Position numbers and translations under genes: made by a program. Source: Bdellovibrio sp. CG22_combo_CG10-13_8_21_14_all_39_27 (GTDB lineage Bacteria > Bdellovibrionota > Bacteriovoracia > Bacteriovoracales > Bacteriovoracaceae). Taken from it: a stretch of DNA of 44,001 nt. Location: the NCBI GenBank assembly GCA_002786715.1, contig PCTW01000016.1, positions 155,371 to 199,371 of the forward strand, written 5' to 3'. This document shows, piece after piece, positions 27,963-34,350 of the stretch. Every line of letters begins with the position of its first letter. The first letter of the stretch is position 1. Under the pieces are notes generated by a model, which saw only the letters and a list, made by a program, of their open reading frames with translations, ran no database searches and was not told where the DNA came from.

Positions 27963-29126
27963 CTAGAGTTTAAAAAACTTCTCGAGCGCGTAGAAGAACT
28001 CTCCTCCTTGAGCAATGCTCGCTGATGTATTGTGATTGACTATTAAAAGCTCTTGCGGAGCTTTGTAGCTGATGACAGCTTGTTCAAGGTTTTCACCATC
28101 AGTTAAGTCTTGAAAGCATAGGAATCGGGCGATTTCAGTGCCTGCATCGACCACTTGACCAGGAGTCATGCGATAGTCGACGAGTCCTCCGCGTGGTGAA
28201 GTATAGCATTTATAATCTTTTAAAAAGCCGGCATGACCCTGATGCTTTTTCTCATAAGAAAACTCATCGATGACTCCGCGATACTTGAGATAATTTAAAA
28301 TCCGAGCGGCATCATCAATGGCACGATCGAATTCAATCACTTCTTCACTGCCTAATTCAACTGTGAATGCTTCAAACTCGAGAGGTATTTCGCGATCTAT
28401 TTCTTTAAAAGCTTGGTGAAGCTTAACCCACGGAACAAAGGTTGCTTCATCCATGGCGCCTGCAAATTCAGGAGGTATGAGTAGAGTCACTTCGGCATCG
28501 AGATGAGCTGCTGAAGTTCGCATATAATCGGCAGCATAAAGATAGCGACAGGCCACAGGTCCGGTGTGAAGATCGAGAACAATGTCACTGGTAGAAGCAA
28601 TCTTTTGCAAAAGAAGATTCAGGTGTCCATTTTCATTTGGCCCTCTCTGATAAAGACTGGCTTCAAGATTTTTATAAGTTTCAAATAGCAATTTCTTAAA
28701 GGCCTTTTTAATATCGGCCCATTCTAGATCTTTATTATCTTGGGCGAATTTATTCAGATCGAGCTTTGATAAATCTTGGTTGATCTGACAAATGTCGTGA
28801 TAATTGCGATTCCAATTGTTGCCAGTGACCGGATTGAAGCGTCCATAGGTCCATGTACCAAGTTTTTGATTGAGAGCAGATGGATTCGCATTGGGAATAA
28901 AAGTGACACTGCCTTTAAAAGGATGATGAAGAAAGTATTTCATCAATTCATAAATGACCACACCCCCTTGGTGCTCGGCCCCATGAACAGAGGATTGAAT
29001 ATGAATATGGGGCCCAGGTTGATCGCCCACGATTCGAAAAAGATTAATATTGAGTTTATCACCGTTGGGTAGTTCTTTTACTGCATGAGTGATTCTTTCA
29101 AAAGTATTCAGTGTCTCTTCGCTCAT
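27963..29126 (-). CDS. AstE/AspA-like deacylase; candidate alternative succinyl-diaminopimelate desuccinylase
   Basis: A 387-residue member of the succinylglutamate desuccinylase / aspartoacylase branch of M14. Zinc ligands His48 and Glu51 (HGAE), His187 (LDLHTGP) and the catalytic Glu257 (TVELGS) are intact, as is the NRNYH block near 107 that binds the substrate carboxylate. Known members remove acyl groups such as succinate or acetate from amino acids. It is the last of six genes in the lysine operon, 19 bases after the lysA-like gene, under the lysine riboswitch. The pathway uses the succinylase branch (dapD present), yet the usual M20-type dapE is not in the operon; this enzyme could fill that step. 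That is inference; AstE function in arginine breakdown is less likely here. Confidence 0.85.
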   Translation of the reverse strand: MSEETLNTFERITHAVKELPNGDKLNINLFRIVGDQPGPHIHIQSSVHGAEHQGGVVIYELMKYFLHHPFKGSVTFIPNANPSALNQKLGTWTYGRFNPVTGNNWNRNYHDICQINQDLSKLDLNKFAQDNKDLEWADIKKAFKKLLFETYKNLEASLYQRGPNENGHLNLLLQKIASTSDIVLDLHTGPVACRYLYAADYMRTSAAHLDAEVTLLIPPEFAGAMDEATFVPWVKLHQAFKEIDREIPLEFEAFTVELGSEEVIEFDRAIDDAARILNYLKYRGVIDEFSYEKKHQGHAGFLKDYKCYTSPRGGLVDYRMTPGQVVDAGTEIARFLCFQDLTDGENLEQAVISYKAPQELLIVNHNTSASIAQGGEFFYALEKFFKL

Positions 29127-29145: not shown

Positions 29146-30351
29146 TTAAACTAACCAATCAATGCTTGGGCGCGGCCAGCGCGGAATCATTAAATCATCA
29201 TTATAAAGAATAACCTCTGCAGGTAGACTGTGACAGAGGAAAAAAGGCATCGATTCAGTAAAACCATAGGCACCACATTGATGAAAAATCATCCAATCTC
29301 CTGGGGCGATGTCATTAGGCAATTGATAATCACCTAGCTTATCCAATGCCGTACACAAGGGGCCGTGTACTTGAAAAGTTGAGAGGGGGGCGCTGCTTTG
29401 GCGGTAGAGTTCACCAGGGAAGGGTTGTTTGGTGATCGCTGGTCGAACCATATGATTGATTCCGCCTTCGAGAACGAGTAGCTCTTTGCCGCGAACAGTT
29501 TTTCTATCAATCACGCGAGTTAAGTAATGGCCGTAGGGGCCAATTGCAAATCGGCCCAGCTCCATATAGATATTTTCCAATTGGAACTTTTTTTTCAATT
29601 GAAAAAGTTCTTTGGCAACATCATAAAAAGAAATAGGTTTTTGATTGGCCTCATAGGGAATTCCAAGTCCGCCGCCTAGATCTAAAAGCTTGAGTGGTAA
29701 TTGCATATCGTTTGCTAACTGAACGCAACGCGAGGCCATTTCGTTCCACAGGGATTTAAGCTGAGGGAGATCGAGAATATTTCCCCACTGAAAGACGTGA
29801 ATGCCCAAAATATCCAGATGCTCTAGCTCTTGCCAGTTAAAGTTGCGCCAAGTTGATTCATCTTCGCCAAAGGGCGTGATATCTTTACCACCAAGTACAC
29901 TTTCGCCTTCAGTCCATTCAAGCTGCACTCGAATCAGAGCTTTGATTTTTTTACCGGCCTCTTTAGCTGCTTGGTTTAACCATTTTGCTTGAGAAGTAGA
30001 CTCGAGAATAATCATGCCGACTTCATTGTCGATCATAGACTTTAAGTACTCTTTCGACTTGGCCGGACCTGTGGCGAGGATGTTTTCTGGTTTTACTCCA
30101 GAAGCCATGGCCTGATCGAGCTCTCCGAGACTGGCCACGTCGATTCCAAATCCGTGATTTCGAAAAACCTTTAAGACTGCTGACAAAGGATTGGCCTTGC
30201 AGGCATACCAAAGAGTGATGTCATCGGGCAGTATTTTTTGCCAATTGTTGAGCTGGTGCTTAAGAAGGTCGAGATCATAAAAATAAAAAGAATGATTAAC
30301 TTTCTTAATCGCTCGATCGATGAAGTCTCGTTTGAAAGAGGGATTTTCCAT
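29146..30351 (-). CDS. lysA: fold-type III PLP decarboxylase, diaminopimelate decarboxylase-like
   Basis: A 401-residue PLP enzyme of the alanine-racemase-like fold III. WYACKANP holds the PLP lysine, DVASLGELDQA and LDLGGGLGIPY bind phosphate, and HGPLCTALD supplies the active-site Cys from the other subunit of the dimer. LysA decarboxylates meso-diaminopimelate to lysine. The signatures GPLCTALD (not GPICESGD) and HQCGAYGFTES belong to the divergent subgroup that includes PvsE-type and exosortase-associated decarboxylases, and IHVFQWGNIL replaces the usual IHxHIGSQ-like segment. Operon context still points to lysine synthesis. Its ATG overlaps the dapD stop (TAATG). The substrate could be a modified diaminopimelate; I give the symbol by context. 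Confidence 0.75.
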   Translation of the reverse strand: MENPSFKRDFIDRAIKKVNHSFYFYDLDLLKHQLNNWQKILPDDITLWYACKANPLSAVLKVFRNHGFGIDVASLGELDQAMASGVKPENILATGPAKSKEYLKSMIDNEVGMIILESTSQAKWLNQAAKEAGKKIKALIRVQLEWTEGESVLGGKDITPFGEDESTWRNFNWQELEHLDILGIHVFQWGNILDLPQLKSLWNEMASRCVQLANDMQLPLKLLDLGGGLGIPYEANQKPISFYDVAKELFQLKKKFQLENIYMELGRFAIGPYGHYLTRVIDRKTVRGKELLVLEGGINHMVRPAITKQPFPGELYRQSSAPLSTFQVHGPLCTALDKLGDYQLPNDIAPGDWMIFHQCGAYGFTESMPFFLCHSLPAEVILYNDDLMIPRWPRPSIDWLV

Positions 30352-31091
30352 TAGCGCAAGTACTCTTCTAGCACCAATGAAGCATCAGATTTTTCATCGC
30401 GATATTTAATAATGATGGCACATCCTAATTGAAGTCCATTTTTATTGGCCCATTTTAGGTCGGGACTTATGGGGCGAGATCCGGGAACAACCACTGCACC
30501 TTCTGGAATTTCGCTGCCACGAGGAAGAACTTTTTCAGAGACGGCGTCATAGACTGGAACGGCCTTACTTAAAATAACACCGGGAGCGATGACAGCGCGG
30601 CGTCTGACCACAATGCCTTCGACAATAACAGAGCCGGCACCAACGAAGACATCGTCTTCAATAATGACTGGTGCGAGTCCAACGGGTTCGAGCACTCCAC
30701 CAATTTGAACACCGGCCGAAAGATGAACACGCTTACCAATTTGAGCGCAACTTCCAACGAGAGCATGGCTATCAATCATAGTTCCTTCATCAACGTAGGC
30801 GCCGATATTGATATAGGCGGGAGGCATGACGATCACGCCCTTAGCTACGAAACTGCCACGACGAATACTTGTTCCACCTGGAACCACACGAACTCCGCGA
30901 GAAACATCAAATTGTTGTGGCATCAGATTATGTTTATCTACAAAACCATTAAATTCTTTTAACTCTCCCGCTTTAAAAGCAGCAAGAATGGCCTGTTTGA
31001 CTTCAACATTGGCCTTCCAAACGCCATTTTCACAATGGGCCGAGCGAAGAGTTCCTTTCTCTAATTCATTTAAAACATTTTCCCAGTTCAT
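30351..31091 (-). CDS. dapD: 2,3,4,5-tetrahydropyridine-2,6-dicarboxylate N-succinyltransferase
   Basis: I place the start at the ATG at 31091 (246 residues) because AAAGGAA precedes it; the longer frame from 31124 would overlap dapA. The left-handed beta-helix is obvious: GGTSIRRGSFVAKGVIVMPP, YINIGAYVDEGTMIDSHALV, CAQIGKRVHLSAGVQIGG, LEPVGLAPVIIEDDVFVGAG. These are the signature hexapeptide repeats of DapD. It succinylates tetrahydrodipicolinate with succinyl-CoA, committing the cell to the succinylase branch of lysine and peptidoglycan precursor synthesis. The C-terminal extension ends near EEYLR. It lies 14 bases after dapA in the riboswitch-controlled operon. Confidence 0.95.
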   Translation of the reverse strand: MNWENVLNELEKGTLRSAHCENGVWKANVEVKQAILAAFKAGELKEFNGFVDKHNLMPQQFDVSRGVRVVPGGTSIRRGSFVAKGVIVMPPAYINIGAYVDEGTMIDSHALVGSCAQIGKRVHLSAGVQIGGVLEPVGLAPVIIEDDVFVGAGSVIVEGIVVRRRAVIAPGVILSKAVPVYDAVSEKVLPRGSEIPEGAVVVPGSRPISPDLKWANKNGLQLGCAIIIKYRDEKSDASLVLEEYLR

Positions 31092-31105
31092 AAAAATTCC
31101 TTTAA

Positions 31106-31990
31106 TTAATGACTTCTGTACCACTCTTGAATTCTCGCGTGGGCGCTCATCAAAGGAGACAGGTCGGTAAGTTCTTCGGCGATCAAAGGAAGTCGCAACG
31201 TTGGTGTTGTGATCATTCCGAGTTGGGCCATCAATAATTTTGCCGGTATTGGATTACTTGCTAAGAAAAGAGCATTTGAACATTCCGCCCAAAGTCTTTC
31301 TTCATCAAGGGTTAATGTTTTATCCAGTGATTTTTTGACAAAGAGTTTAGTCTCCTGAGGCCAAACGTTTGAAGCAACAGATACTAAGCCTTGTCCACCA
31401 AGACGGCAAAAGGCAGGAGTTAAGGCATCGTCACCGCTCATCATCATCGCCTTTGGAGCTTCAGCACGATACTTTGAAAACTCTGCTTCTGAGCCAGATG
31501 CCTCTTTAATCGCCCAAAAGTTCTTATGATTGGCAAGGTCGAGAACGGTATTGTGATCCATTGGCTTACCTGTTCTTGAGGGAACGTTGTAAAGCATACA
31601 GGGACGAGTTGAAGCATCGAGGAGATTTTTAAACCAAGCAGTTTGGCCAACTCTACCGGGTTTTGCATAGAGGGGAGTCACCAGAAGGTAAGCATGGGCA
31701 GGAAGGGTTTCGATATGGCGAACCCACTCAAGTGTTTCATTCATGTTAATGCCGCCAACTCCCACCATGAGAGGAATCTTTAATCCAAGCTTGAAGGCAA
31801 AGTCTAAGATTTGACGACGATCTGACTCATCGAGATTGAGTGCTTCACCCGTGCTTCCTAAGAGAACGACGCCATTTTCCGCTTTTTCTTGCATCCGCAG
31901 AAGCTTTTCGAAGTCCTGATAGTTGACGCTTCCGTCTCGGTTCATGGGAGTAATAATGGCAGTCCATAGTATAGTTTGATTAAGATTCAT
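31106..31990 (-). CDS. dapA: 4-hydroxy-tetrahydrodipicolinate synthase
   Basis: A 294-residue TIM-barrel aldolase that condenses pyruvate with aspartate semialdehyde. The Schiff-base lysine is Lys162 (AIKEAS), Tyr134 lies in LYNVPSRTG and the Thr of GSTGEA at 45-50 completes the proton relay. The length is normal. The start ATG overlaps the dapB stop as ATGA. The lysine feedback site cannot be judged reliably from sequence, but transcriptional control by the upstream riboswitch is evident. Confidence 0.95.
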   Translation of the reverse strand: MNLNQTILWTAIITPMNRDGSVNYQDFEKLLRMQEKAENGVVLLGSTGEALNLDESDRRQILDFAFKLGLKIPLMVGVGGINMNETLEWVRHIETLPAHAYLLVTPLYAKPGRVGQTAWFKNLLDASTRPCMLYNVPSRTGKPMDHNTVLDLANHKNFWAIKEASGSEAEFSKYRAEAPKAMMMSGDDALTPAFCRLGGQGLVSVASNVWPQETKLFVKKSLDKTLTLDEERLWAECSNALFLASNPIPAKLLMAQLGMITTPTLRLPLIAEELTDLSPLMSAHARIQEWYRSH

Positions 31991-32664
31991 AAAAGCTCCT
32001 TGGCGACCAATTGGTCGAATGGAATGAGACCGGTTGTTGTTGTTTTAAGTTGCGTGATCTTGTTGGCTGCCCAGATGGCCCCAGAGGCGAAAATTTTTCG
32101 ATCGAGGGCCTCGTGGGTTAAGGTGATTTTTTCAAAGGGAAGTTTGAGCTCGAGACTGTGGAGACCGATCACATCACCGGTTCTCTCAGAAGTTATGTTA
32201 ACTTCATTTTCTCCTAACCATTCTTTCCAGCTCAAAGCGGTTCCACTTGGAGCATCCACTTTTTTGATATGGTGAACTTCGTGAATAGCATAGCTTGAAT
32301 CAGTGAGCTTTGACGCTTTCTGAAGTTGCTCAAGACACAGTTTGACGACGTTCATTCCGAGCGCAAAATTTGAGCCCCAGACCCAAGTCAGTTTGCGTGC
32401 TTTCAATTCTTGATCCAGCTTTTCACGGCCTTCCCATCCGGTCGCGCCAGAGACGACGGCAATACCTGACTCGAGGAGTGTGGGAACCAAGTCAGTAAAA
32501 GCTCCCCCGGGGAGAAAACAAATGGCCACATCATGTTTCTTTAGGCGATCAACAGTGGCATGGTGAGTGCTATCAAAAACTTCAATTTTAAAAGCTTTAA
32601 GCAACTCTACGACGTGTTGCCCGGTCTTGCCCTTGCCTATGACTGCATAACTCAGTTCACTCAT
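31987..32664 (-). CDS. dapB: 4-hydroxy-tetrahydrodipicolinate reductase, short form
   Basis: A 225-residue enzyme that reduces the DapA product with NAD(P)H. The N-terminus carries a shortened nucleotide site (IGKGKTGQHV), and EVHHIKKVDAPSGTAL is the unmistakable DapB signature with the catalytic His and Lys. Most DapB proteins have about 240-270 residues; this one has a compact Rossmann domain, as in some other bacteria. It overlaps lysC by ATGA upstream and dapA by ATGA downstream, which implies translational coupling. Confidence 0.94.
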   Translation of the reverse strand: MSELSYAVIGKGKTGQHVVELLKAFKIEVFDSTHHATVDRLKKHDVAICFLPGGAFTDLVPTLLESGIAVVSGATGWEGREKLDQELKARKLTWVWGSNFALGMNVVKLCLEQLQKASKLTDSSYAIHEVHHIKKVDAPSGTALSWKEWLGENEVNITSERTGDVIGLHSLELKLPFEKITLTHEALDRKIFASGAIWAANKITQLKTTTTGLIPFDQLVAKELL

Positions 32665-34079
32665 ACGCGCGCCTCATAAGCTATGGGTGCGATCGTTATT
32701 GGATTCTCTATAAAAGTCTTGTGAAGTCTAGTGATTGATTCATTGGCCTCTTCTTCATTCACTAAGAAACAAAAGTTGTGCTTGCTAGCACCGAGGCAGA
32801 TCATGCGCACATTGATGTGTCGCTCTTCTGGACTTTCCGGGGCGAGTGATTCGAACACTAAACGTCCCAGACCTGGAGTATGATTGATATTGTTTCCAAT
32901 GAGACTCACGAGCGTTAAGTTCTCTTCAACTTTGAGATCGGCAAATTGTTTAAGTTCAGCAAAAAGGGCCTTGTTCAAAAGAGTTGAATCATCAACTGTT
33001 AATGCAACAGAAATTTCCGAAGTGGTGATGGAGTCGATACTGATCTTGTGATCGTTAAAGATTTTAAAAATGGTAAAGAGAAAGCCGTGCCCGTGGAGCA
33101 TTTTTGGAGTTGAAAGAGTTAAGAGCGATTGATCTTTTTTGACTGCCATCGCTCTTATCAAGGGAGCACTTTCAGTATGTGAACGAATCCAAGTTCCTTC
33201 TTTTTCTGGTTCATATGAACTACCAACAAAGACTTCGATTCCTTGTCTCATGGCCGGTGCCAGAGTGGTAGGGTGAAGAACTTTTGCTCCAAAAACGGCA
33301 AGCTCTGCAGCTTCTTTGAAAGTAATTTCACTTATAGGACGAGCTGCTGAGGTTATGCGAGGATCAGTTGTGGCGATACCTGCAACGTCTGTCCAGATCT
33401 CAACGACGTTCGCGCGCAAGCCTTCACCTAGAAGAGTTGCTGAATAGTCTGATCCACCTCGGCCCAGAGTCGTCGTTTCTCCAGCTTCTGTTGCGCCAAT
33501 AAAACCTTGTGTAACGAAAACGGCATTTCCGTATTTTGCGTCGAGAAGAAGTTTTTGACATTGACGATGAATGACATCGATTTGCGGATTAGCACGTCCA
33601 AACTGATCATCAGTGATCATGACTTTGCGAACGTCAAAACAAATCACGCGGCGATCTTGACCTTGGGCCGTGTGGCGCATGGCCTCGGCACAAAGCACGG
33701 AGCTTGTGCGTTCACCAATACTTAATAAACGATCATAGGCGCGCGGTGAACATTCACGCAAAAGAATCATTCCTTGGGCCATGGTGCGAGCTTCATTCAT
33801 AAGCGCATCGACTTCCATGAATACTTCTTCTGAAGCTTCAAGATCAAAAGCAATTTGGCGATGACGTTCATTCATTGTTTCAATGAGGTTTTCTACTTTT
33901 TTAGCTTCACCTTCGACAGCAAGTTTTGATATTTCAATTAATTGATTTGTTGTACCTGAAGTTGCAGAGACCACGACGACACTGGCCCCGCGATTGAGAG
34001 CAATTTGACTTGAGCGTTTCATGGCCACCGCATCGGCCATAGAAGTTCCACCAAATTTGGCGATAATGTTTTTAGACAT
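32661..34079 (-). CDS. lysC: aspartate kinase (LysC/AK III type)
   Basis: A 472-residue kinase that phosphorylates aspartate, the first step to lysine, threonine and methionine. KFGGTSMAD at 8-16 and VVVSATSGTTNQLI at 35-48 are kinase-domain signatures; LGRGGSDYSA near 208-217 binds aspartate. The C-terminal 170 residues form two ACT domains that usually bind lysine. The sequence reads like monofunctional AK III and lacks a homoserine dehydrogenase part. It is the first gene of the six-gene operon, has GGAGG before the ATG, and follows a lysine riboswitch, so both transcript and enzyme are likely to sense lysine. Confidence 0.95.
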   Translation of the reverse strand: MSKNIIAKFGGTSMADAVAMKRSSQIALNRGASVVVVSATSGTTNQLIEISKLAVEGEAKKVENLIETMNERHRQIAFDLEASEEVFMEVDALMNEARTMAQGMILLRECSPRAYDRLLSIGERTSSVLCAEAMRHTAQGQDRRVICFDVRKVMITDDQFGRANPQIDVIHRQCQKLLLDAKYGNAVFVTQGFIGATEAGETTTLGRGGSDYSATLLGEGLRANVVEIWTDVAGIATTDPRITSAARPISEITFKEAAELAVFGAKVLHPTTLAPAMRQGIEVFVGSSYEPEKEGTWIRSHTESAPLIRAMAVKKDQSLLTLSTPKMLHGHGFLFTIFKIFNDHKISIDSITTSEISVALTVDDSTLLNKALFAELKQFADLKVEENLTLVSLIGNNINHTPGLGRLVFESLAPESPEERHINVRMICLGASKHNFCFLVNEEEANESITRLHKTFIENPITIAPIAYEARV

Positions 34080-34141: not shown

Positions 34142-34350
34142 GCCAAGACAAGATTTTTGATCTTTTTATTCTTGGTGGAAGCTCTCCGCAAAACGAGTTT
34201 GCGACAGTTGCGACGTTTGACCATCAACAACCAGCTTTAGTGCCTCCGAAAGCAATAAAACTTCGGCGATATACACTCAAATCCAATCTCTCAATGGGTT
34301 TCGGACCCTCAAGATTGACAAGCGCAAACGCACCTCTTCACCACGGATCA
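34142..34350 (-). promoter_or_regulatory. lysine riboswitch (L-box) upstream of lysC
   Basis: Read on the minus strand, this stretch has the L-box signature in order: AGAGGTGCG (34337-34329), GAGGGTCCGAAACCC (34310-34296), CGCCGAAG (34268-34261), CGGAGGC near 34245, and a closing strand CTTCCACC (34181-34174) that can pair with GTGGTGAAG at the 5' end. Just downstream, CCAAGA and TCTTGG (34175-34143) with an inner AAGAT/ATCTT stem form an alternative hairpin that shares bases with the 3' side of the closing helix, the likely switch. It lies about 60 bases before the lysC ribosome site. Lysine binding should lower expression of the operon. Confidence 0.92.

Follow-up and report, generated by a model that had tools for sequence, protein, structure and literature searches.

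A lysine-riboswitch operon in a Bdellovibrio genome without recognisable dapE encodes a candidate N-succinyl-diaminopimelate decarboxylase and a candidate desuccinylase

The window analysed here, a stretch of 44,001 nucleotides from Bdellovibrio sp. CG22_combo_CG10-13_8_21_14_all_39_27 (contig PCTW01000016.1), harbors six open reading frames on the minus strand, lysC-dapB-dapA-dapD-LysA2-AstE-like, with a lysine riboswitch in front. We propose that LysA2 is a candidate N-succinyl-LL-diaminopimelate (DAP) decarboxylase and the AstE-like protein a candidate N2-succinyl-lysine desuccinylase, possibly acting on N-succinyl-DAP too. Judged from sequence, we give an even chance to a lysine route in which LysA2 decarboxylates N-succinyl-LL-DAP first and the AstE-like enzyme desuccinylates last. 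The wider scheme, in which this route proceeds without free DAP and an MpaA-like M14 amidase replaces DapE for peptidoglycan synthesis, is held somewhat less than evenly probable. The operon comprises:

27963..29126, minus strand: AstE/AspA-like zinc amidohydrolase, 387 aa, last operon gene; PF24827
29146..30351, minus strand: LysA2, PLP decarboxylase of the alanine-racemase fold, not a canonical LysA; TIGR01048 198 bits, cut-off 297.9
30351..31124, minus strand: dapD, tetrahydrodipicolinate N-succinyltransferase; NF008808 291 bits (cut-off 204), TIGR00965 192 bits, below its cut-off of 375
31106..31990, minus strand: dapA; TIGR00674 257.9 bits (cut-off 206)
31987..32664, minus strand: dapB, short form, 225 aa; PF05173 above cut-off, TIGR00036 103.9 bits, below its cut-off of 122
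32661..34079, minus strand: lysC, aspartokinase; NF006570 556.8 bits (cut-off 455)
34171..34346, minus strand: lysine riboswitch aptamer; RF00168 57.9 bits (gathering score 30), full length

The initial annotation had reported a dapD gene and a lysine riboswitch controlling the AstE-like gene, and both are borne out by these matches. Scans for promoters and terminators gave chance-level results only. Counting the window and 13 further loci, 14 operons contain LysA2 and the AstE-like gene, and 11 of them have the riboswitch in front; among nine dap operons in genomes with neither gene, one (L120) does. At locus L114 it fronts a separate lysC, and no lysine riboswitch was detected at L037, L118, L124 and L125. 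Scored over 27 genomes, it was found in 11 of 15 carrying the pair versus 1 of 12 others (Fisher p = 0.0014, kinship ignored). Apparently, lysine control follows the LysA2/AstE-like pair and not dapD.

The genome carrying the window (G000; 4.08 Mb, 97 contigs, 99.78% complete) was searched for DapE, DapF and DapL. No recognisable DapE was found genome-wide, the best match to TIGR01246 (65 bits) falling far below its cut-off of 361.8; the earlier statement that no M20 dapE is present in the operon thus extends to the genome. At this completeness, loss of dapE to an assembly gap is unlikely, though possible. PF01546 gave four matches, three of which are M28 peptidases and were rejected as DapE. 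The only true M20 protein, on contig C33, was also rejected, since its best match is glutamate carboxypeptidase (192 bits) and DapE-named models score at most 80 bits. Its gene is overlapped by a GNAT gene resembling N-acyl amino acid synthases (L001:578-2688, on G000:C33), and the two are possibly a make-and-break pair for N-acyl amino acids. A search for dapF, suggested by the initial annotation, found the gene on a different contig (176 bits, cut-off 115). DapL (TIGR03542) exceeded its cut-off in none of 59 genomes, and a single-protein scan of genome contigs gave no match. The genome thus shares LysC, DapA, DapB, DapD, DapF and a canonical LysA with the known succinylase branch DapD-DapC-DapE-DapF-LysA, but it is without an M20 DapE, and its lysine operon adds LysA2 and the AstE-like gene.

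From the gene set we infer which substrates LysA2 and the AstE-like enzyme use, which of them acts first, and what the MpaA-like amidase does, as follows. Within the succinylase pathway, the operon would form a branch dedicated to lysine. DapD would succinylate tetrahydrodipicolinate, and an aminotransferase encoded elsewhere would convert the product to N-succinyl-LL-DAP. LysA2 would then decarboxylate its free amino-acid end, giving N2-succinyl-L-lysine, which the AstE-like enzyme would hydrolyse to L-lysine and succinate. Since the succinyl group would be kept until the last step, lysine formation could dispense with both free DAP and DapF. For peptidoglycan, DAP would be derived from the same DapD product by a different desuccinylase, most likely the MpaA-like protein, followed by DapF. 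If this is true, lysine supply is separated from cell-wall DAP supply, and the lysine branch is under riboswitch control.

The initial annotation had taken the gene upstream of the AstE-like gene for an ordinary lysA, a view that has to be abandoned. LysA2 scores 198.4 bits with TIGR01048, below the cut-off of 297.9, and a true LysA (378.9 bits) is encoded elsewhere in the genome, between cysS and uvrB on contig C16. In DAP decarboxylase, an acidic residue beside the catalytic cysteine binds the side-chain amine, and an arginine of the specificity helix binds a carboxylate of meso-DAP; FigC, which acts on the N-acylated amino acid N-citrylornithine, has lost the acidic residue (available part of PMC7857480). 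The residue following the catalytic cysteine of LysA2 is threonine (C333-T334), with no acidic residue there, in all 19 aligned copies, and C-T was also present at all 68 loci carrying LysA2 among the best 80 of 405 AstE relatives (67 by pattern, L335 read singly). K52 and R303 are invariant in the 19 copies; R303 aligns with the arginine of the canonical R-P motif and appears to occupy the position of the specificity-helix arginine. Loss of the acidic residue combined with a retained arginine is what one would expect of an enzyme whose substrate is a DAP with an acylated distal amine and a free distal carboxylate. Among 20 decarboxylases read at other loci, 17 are canonical or kinase-fused LysA, all with C-E; the remaining three (L140, L147, L150) are of other types, L147 also having C-E. 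A tree of 41 rows places LysA2 and the gammaproteobacterial copies on one side of a branch with 100/99 support, where the LysA2-like protein of G019 branches deeply. A fold search returned BtrK first and DAP decarboxylases next. FigC, SbnH and BtrK share the fold of LysA2; FigC, like LysA2, is without the acidic residue, and BtrK reads GPLCT, i.e., C-T as in LysA2, but their substrates are citryl- or carrier-bound, unlike succinyl-DAP (PMC7857480, in the part available). LysA2 additionally has a near-invariant glutamate, E366 (in GAYGFTE), which has no counterpart in canonical LysA; it is invariant in the 19-copy alignment and replaced by asparagine at locus L312, and it could be a ligand for a free amine.

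The assignment of the last gene to the AstE/AspA family with intact zinc ligands was confirmed: it matches PF24827 (AstE_AspA_cat) with 47.3 bits (cut-off 25), and H48, E51 and H187, together with E257, do not vary across the 19 aligned sequences. That this family removes succinyl-like groups was also correctly stated. A profile search gave no M20 match. The AlphaFold2 model is confident (pLDDT 90.6), and the closest folds are 3fmc/3lwu and CphZ. Shewanella 3fmc (Sama_0604) and 3lwu show about 36% identity (TM 0.91), and their PDB titles give no function. CphZ (8ein/8eip), a cyanophycin dipeptide hydrolase (PDB titles; PMC10206079), shares the fold over nearly the whole length at about 23% identity. 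It cleaves beta-Asp-Arg/Lys, whereas the AstE-like gene accompanies dapD and LysA2, and the likeness is one of fold alone. N2-succinyl-lysine is beta-Asp-Lys minus the free amino group, a resemblance which favours lysine release by the AstE-like enzyme, with succinyl-DAP still a possible substrate.

The distribution of the genes was analyzed in 59 genomes, i.e., the present one and 58 relatives. AstE-like proteins matched in 24 at E ≤ 0.001, and 22 were kept after removal of G047 and G058 (E about 1e-3). dapD matched in 38 at E ≤ 1e-20, with 31 close and seven divergent copies (about 40-45% identity). The 31 close-dapD genomes comprise 19 with both AstE-like and LysA2, nine with neither, two with AstE-like alone (G023, G025) and one with LysA2-like alone (G019). 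The co-occurrence is significant among these 31 (Fisher p = 2.5e-5, kinship not corrected); a kinship-aware pair test offered only three supported independent pairs, the dapD tree being poorly resolved. The LysA2 match of G008 is a 237-aa frame, and G031, where the AstE-like gene is a fragment at the edge of a contig and no dapD was detected, lies outside the 31. At 20 fetched AstE loci, LysA2 is directly upstream in 13 and 2.8-4.4 kb away in two; at one (L037, from G023) dapD directly precedes the AstE-like gene, and at four the stretch contains none of the other operon genes, although one of these genomes, G020, has the pair at another contig end. At L118:9553-12002 (G019), a LysA2-like gene follows dapD and a partial second copy lies downstream, with no AstE-like gene; no convincing AstE remnant was found downstream of this LysA2-like gene.

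Furthermore, GTDB genomes were scanned with the AstE alignment, and 405 relatives were confirmed. The best 80 of these belong to Bdellovibrionota, some of them records already in the 59-genome set and hence not independent, and to Gammaproteobacteria (Pseudoalteromonas, Colwellia, Thalassotalea, Photobacterium, Shewanella and others). LysA2 is in the locus for 68 of these best 80, in 65 directly upstream of the AstE-like gene, and absent from the stretch in 12, at L306 because the contig starts there. The set riboswitch-dapA-dapD-LysA2-AstE thus recurs, whole or in part, in Gammaproteobacteria including Pseudoalteromonas, and a lysine riboswitch was detected in front of six of seven gammaproteobacterial loci tested. 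Within the best 80, five gammaproteobacterial loci read dapA-AstE and one Shewanella locus lysC-AstE with LysA2 not nearby, and the clade of G023 (L283, L286) has dapD-AstE without LysA2 in the operon. In an AstE tree of 45 rows, LysA2-free loci are scattered in several places among LysA2-bearing ones, which suggests repeated loss or relocation. A gammaproteobacterial metagenome-assembled genome (L312:110-10095) carries dapA-dapD-LysA2-argF'-argG-argB-argC-argH-AstE, in which dapA-dapD-LysA2 is fused to an arginine cluster of the N-acetylornithine-carbamoyltransferase type. One deacylase may serve both pathways there; the AstE-like gene ends the cluster as if its product stripped acyl groups from finished amino acids.

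A different enzyme must act as DapE in some relatives. No M20 dimerisation domain was found in 9 of 38 genomes searched, and G006 (93% complete) and G034 (99%) possess a close dapD as well as DapF but neither AstE-like nor M20, so that something else must fill this role there. For genomes lacking AstE-like, the neighbours of dapD (among them semialdehyde dehydrogenase, integrase and NUDIX genes) were considered as a hidden DapE and rejected. The search for AstE_AspA members brought up an M14 protein of about 228 aa, which scores 97.5 bits with the MpaA model NF007897, below its cut-off of 157. The copy of the present genome lies outside the window:

G000:C92:40669-41352: MpaA-like M14 amidase

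In seven of seven genomes with divergent dapD, the MpaA-like gene is directly upstream of it on the same strand; five pairs were read as open reading frames (L128-L132) and two by match coordinates:

G042:C1:146141-147517: MpaA-like/dapD pair
G044:C89:21331-22736: MpaA-like/dapD pair

In the fetched loci of close-dapD genomes, MpaA-like was not adjacent to dapD. At E ≤ 1e-30, 34 of 38 dapD genomes have it, as against 11 of the 21 in which dapD was not detected (p = 0.003, with no correction for kinship); G001 (75% complete), G003, G013 (66%) and G023 carry dapD but gave no match to it. MpaA cuts the gamma-D-glutamyl amide on DAP, a bond chemically close to a succinyl amide on DAP. The MpaA-like protein is named here as the best candidate for a general DapE replacement.

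The initial annotation had proposed that the AstE-like enzyme itself replaces DapE. In this main rival explanation, N-succinyl-LL-DAP would be cleaved to LL-DAP, DapF would give meso-DAP, and LysA2 and/or the second LysA would decarboxylate DAP. The absence of dapE and the position of the AstE-like gene in the operon agree with it, as do five genomes with dapD and AstE-like and without an M20 dimer domain (G005, G007, G008, G013 and G030; 92, 99, 85, 66 and 67% complete), and for G023 (99% complete), which has dapD-AstE and canonical LysA but lacks LysA2 genome-wide and any close MpaA-like, it is the simplest reading. On the other hand, AstE-like tracks LysA2 rather than dapD and is absent from 10 of 31 dapD genomes; two of these, G006 and G034, lack M20 as well yet have DapF, hence it does not serve the group at large as DapE. 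Moreover, the riboswitch is mostly missing from dap operons where neither gene is present, and in Gammaproteobacteria carrying the set, which presumably have a standard dapE, the set would duplicate this enzyme. We thus consider the proposal rather unlikely and probably not quite right, the finding behind it being real.

A promiscuous AstE-like enzyme, cleaving N-succinyl-DAP for peptidoglycan and N2-succinyl-lysine for lysine, would explain loci both with and without LysA2, and both compounds are N2-succinyl L-amino acids. It would leave the DAP supply of genomes without AstE-like and M20 unexplained, for which an MpaA-like or other enzyme would still be needed, and we regard it as improbable. 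A role in the AST arginine pathway or in cyanophycin dipeptide breakdown, to which the family relatives AstE and CphZ point, is very improbable, as none of the NCBIfam AstE models gave a match at E ≤ 0.001 (only TIGR02994, DoeB, with 18.7 against 402.7 bits) and in two bacterial phyla the gene shares operons under a lysine riboswitch with dap genes.

For the decarboxylate-first route we counted the sub-cut-off LysA2 beside a true LysA, the C-T motif, the kept R303, the co-occurrence, the riboswitch, the gammaproteobacterial recurrence, G006/G034 and L312, all of which would fit it. Counted against it were the G023 clade, the LysA2-free gammaproteobacterial and Shewanella loci, E366, MpaA-like in dapD-free genomes, and pair genomes without a canonical second LysA. 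A second LysA-like match was obtained in 16 of 19 pair genomes, only part of which were read; G003, G010 and G027 gave none, and the one in G033 belongs to another type than canonical LysA. Hence, LysA2 may be the sole lysine-forming decarboxylase in these four.

A decarboxylate-first route was not described in the literature searched, most of it outside subscription journals; no match paired N-succinyl-lysine with diaminopimelate or linked MpaA with dapE and murein tripeptide, and "succinyllysine" was absent from the papers checked. The available text of PMC12925634 holds nothing on these genes. The four lysine variants tabulated in the accessible part of PMC9026213 differ in meso-DAP formation and all end with LysA; compared to these, N2-succinyl-lysine would provide a new ending. 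As far as its available text shows, a 2017 study (PMC5584792) listed dapA-dapD-lysA-hypothetical1-hypothetical2 in Pseudoalteromonas and lysC-dapB-dapA-dapD-lysA in Bacteriovorax under a lysine riboswitch, lysA being taken as such in both; the proposed route would explain the former operon with its hypothetical genes. The sections of PMC7311316 (GapMind) at hand treat DapE as an open gap in Pedobacter, and DapE together with DapC as missing in Echinicola; an M14 replacement would bear on such bacteria, in which a DapD-type pathway is present but DapE has no candidate. They also describe a succinylated arginine pathway of Bacteroides, in which the succinyl group is retained through the intermediates and taken off late, as proposed here; unlike the present route, it leads to arginine and its candidate desuccinylase is DapE-like. 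In the metal-reducing deltaproteobacteria covered by the available part of PMC545781, orthologues of dapC, dapD or dapE were not found. DapE is studied as a drug target, according to the portions of the literature available, hence knowing its replacements matters.

Additionally, DapF was not found in G016 and G023 despite completeness of at least 99%, canonical LysA being present in both. Fused aspartokinase-LysA genes were observed at L135:1734-4382 (G025) and L151:1880-4288 (G008), and in these two genomes the AstE-like gene is located away from the dap operon.
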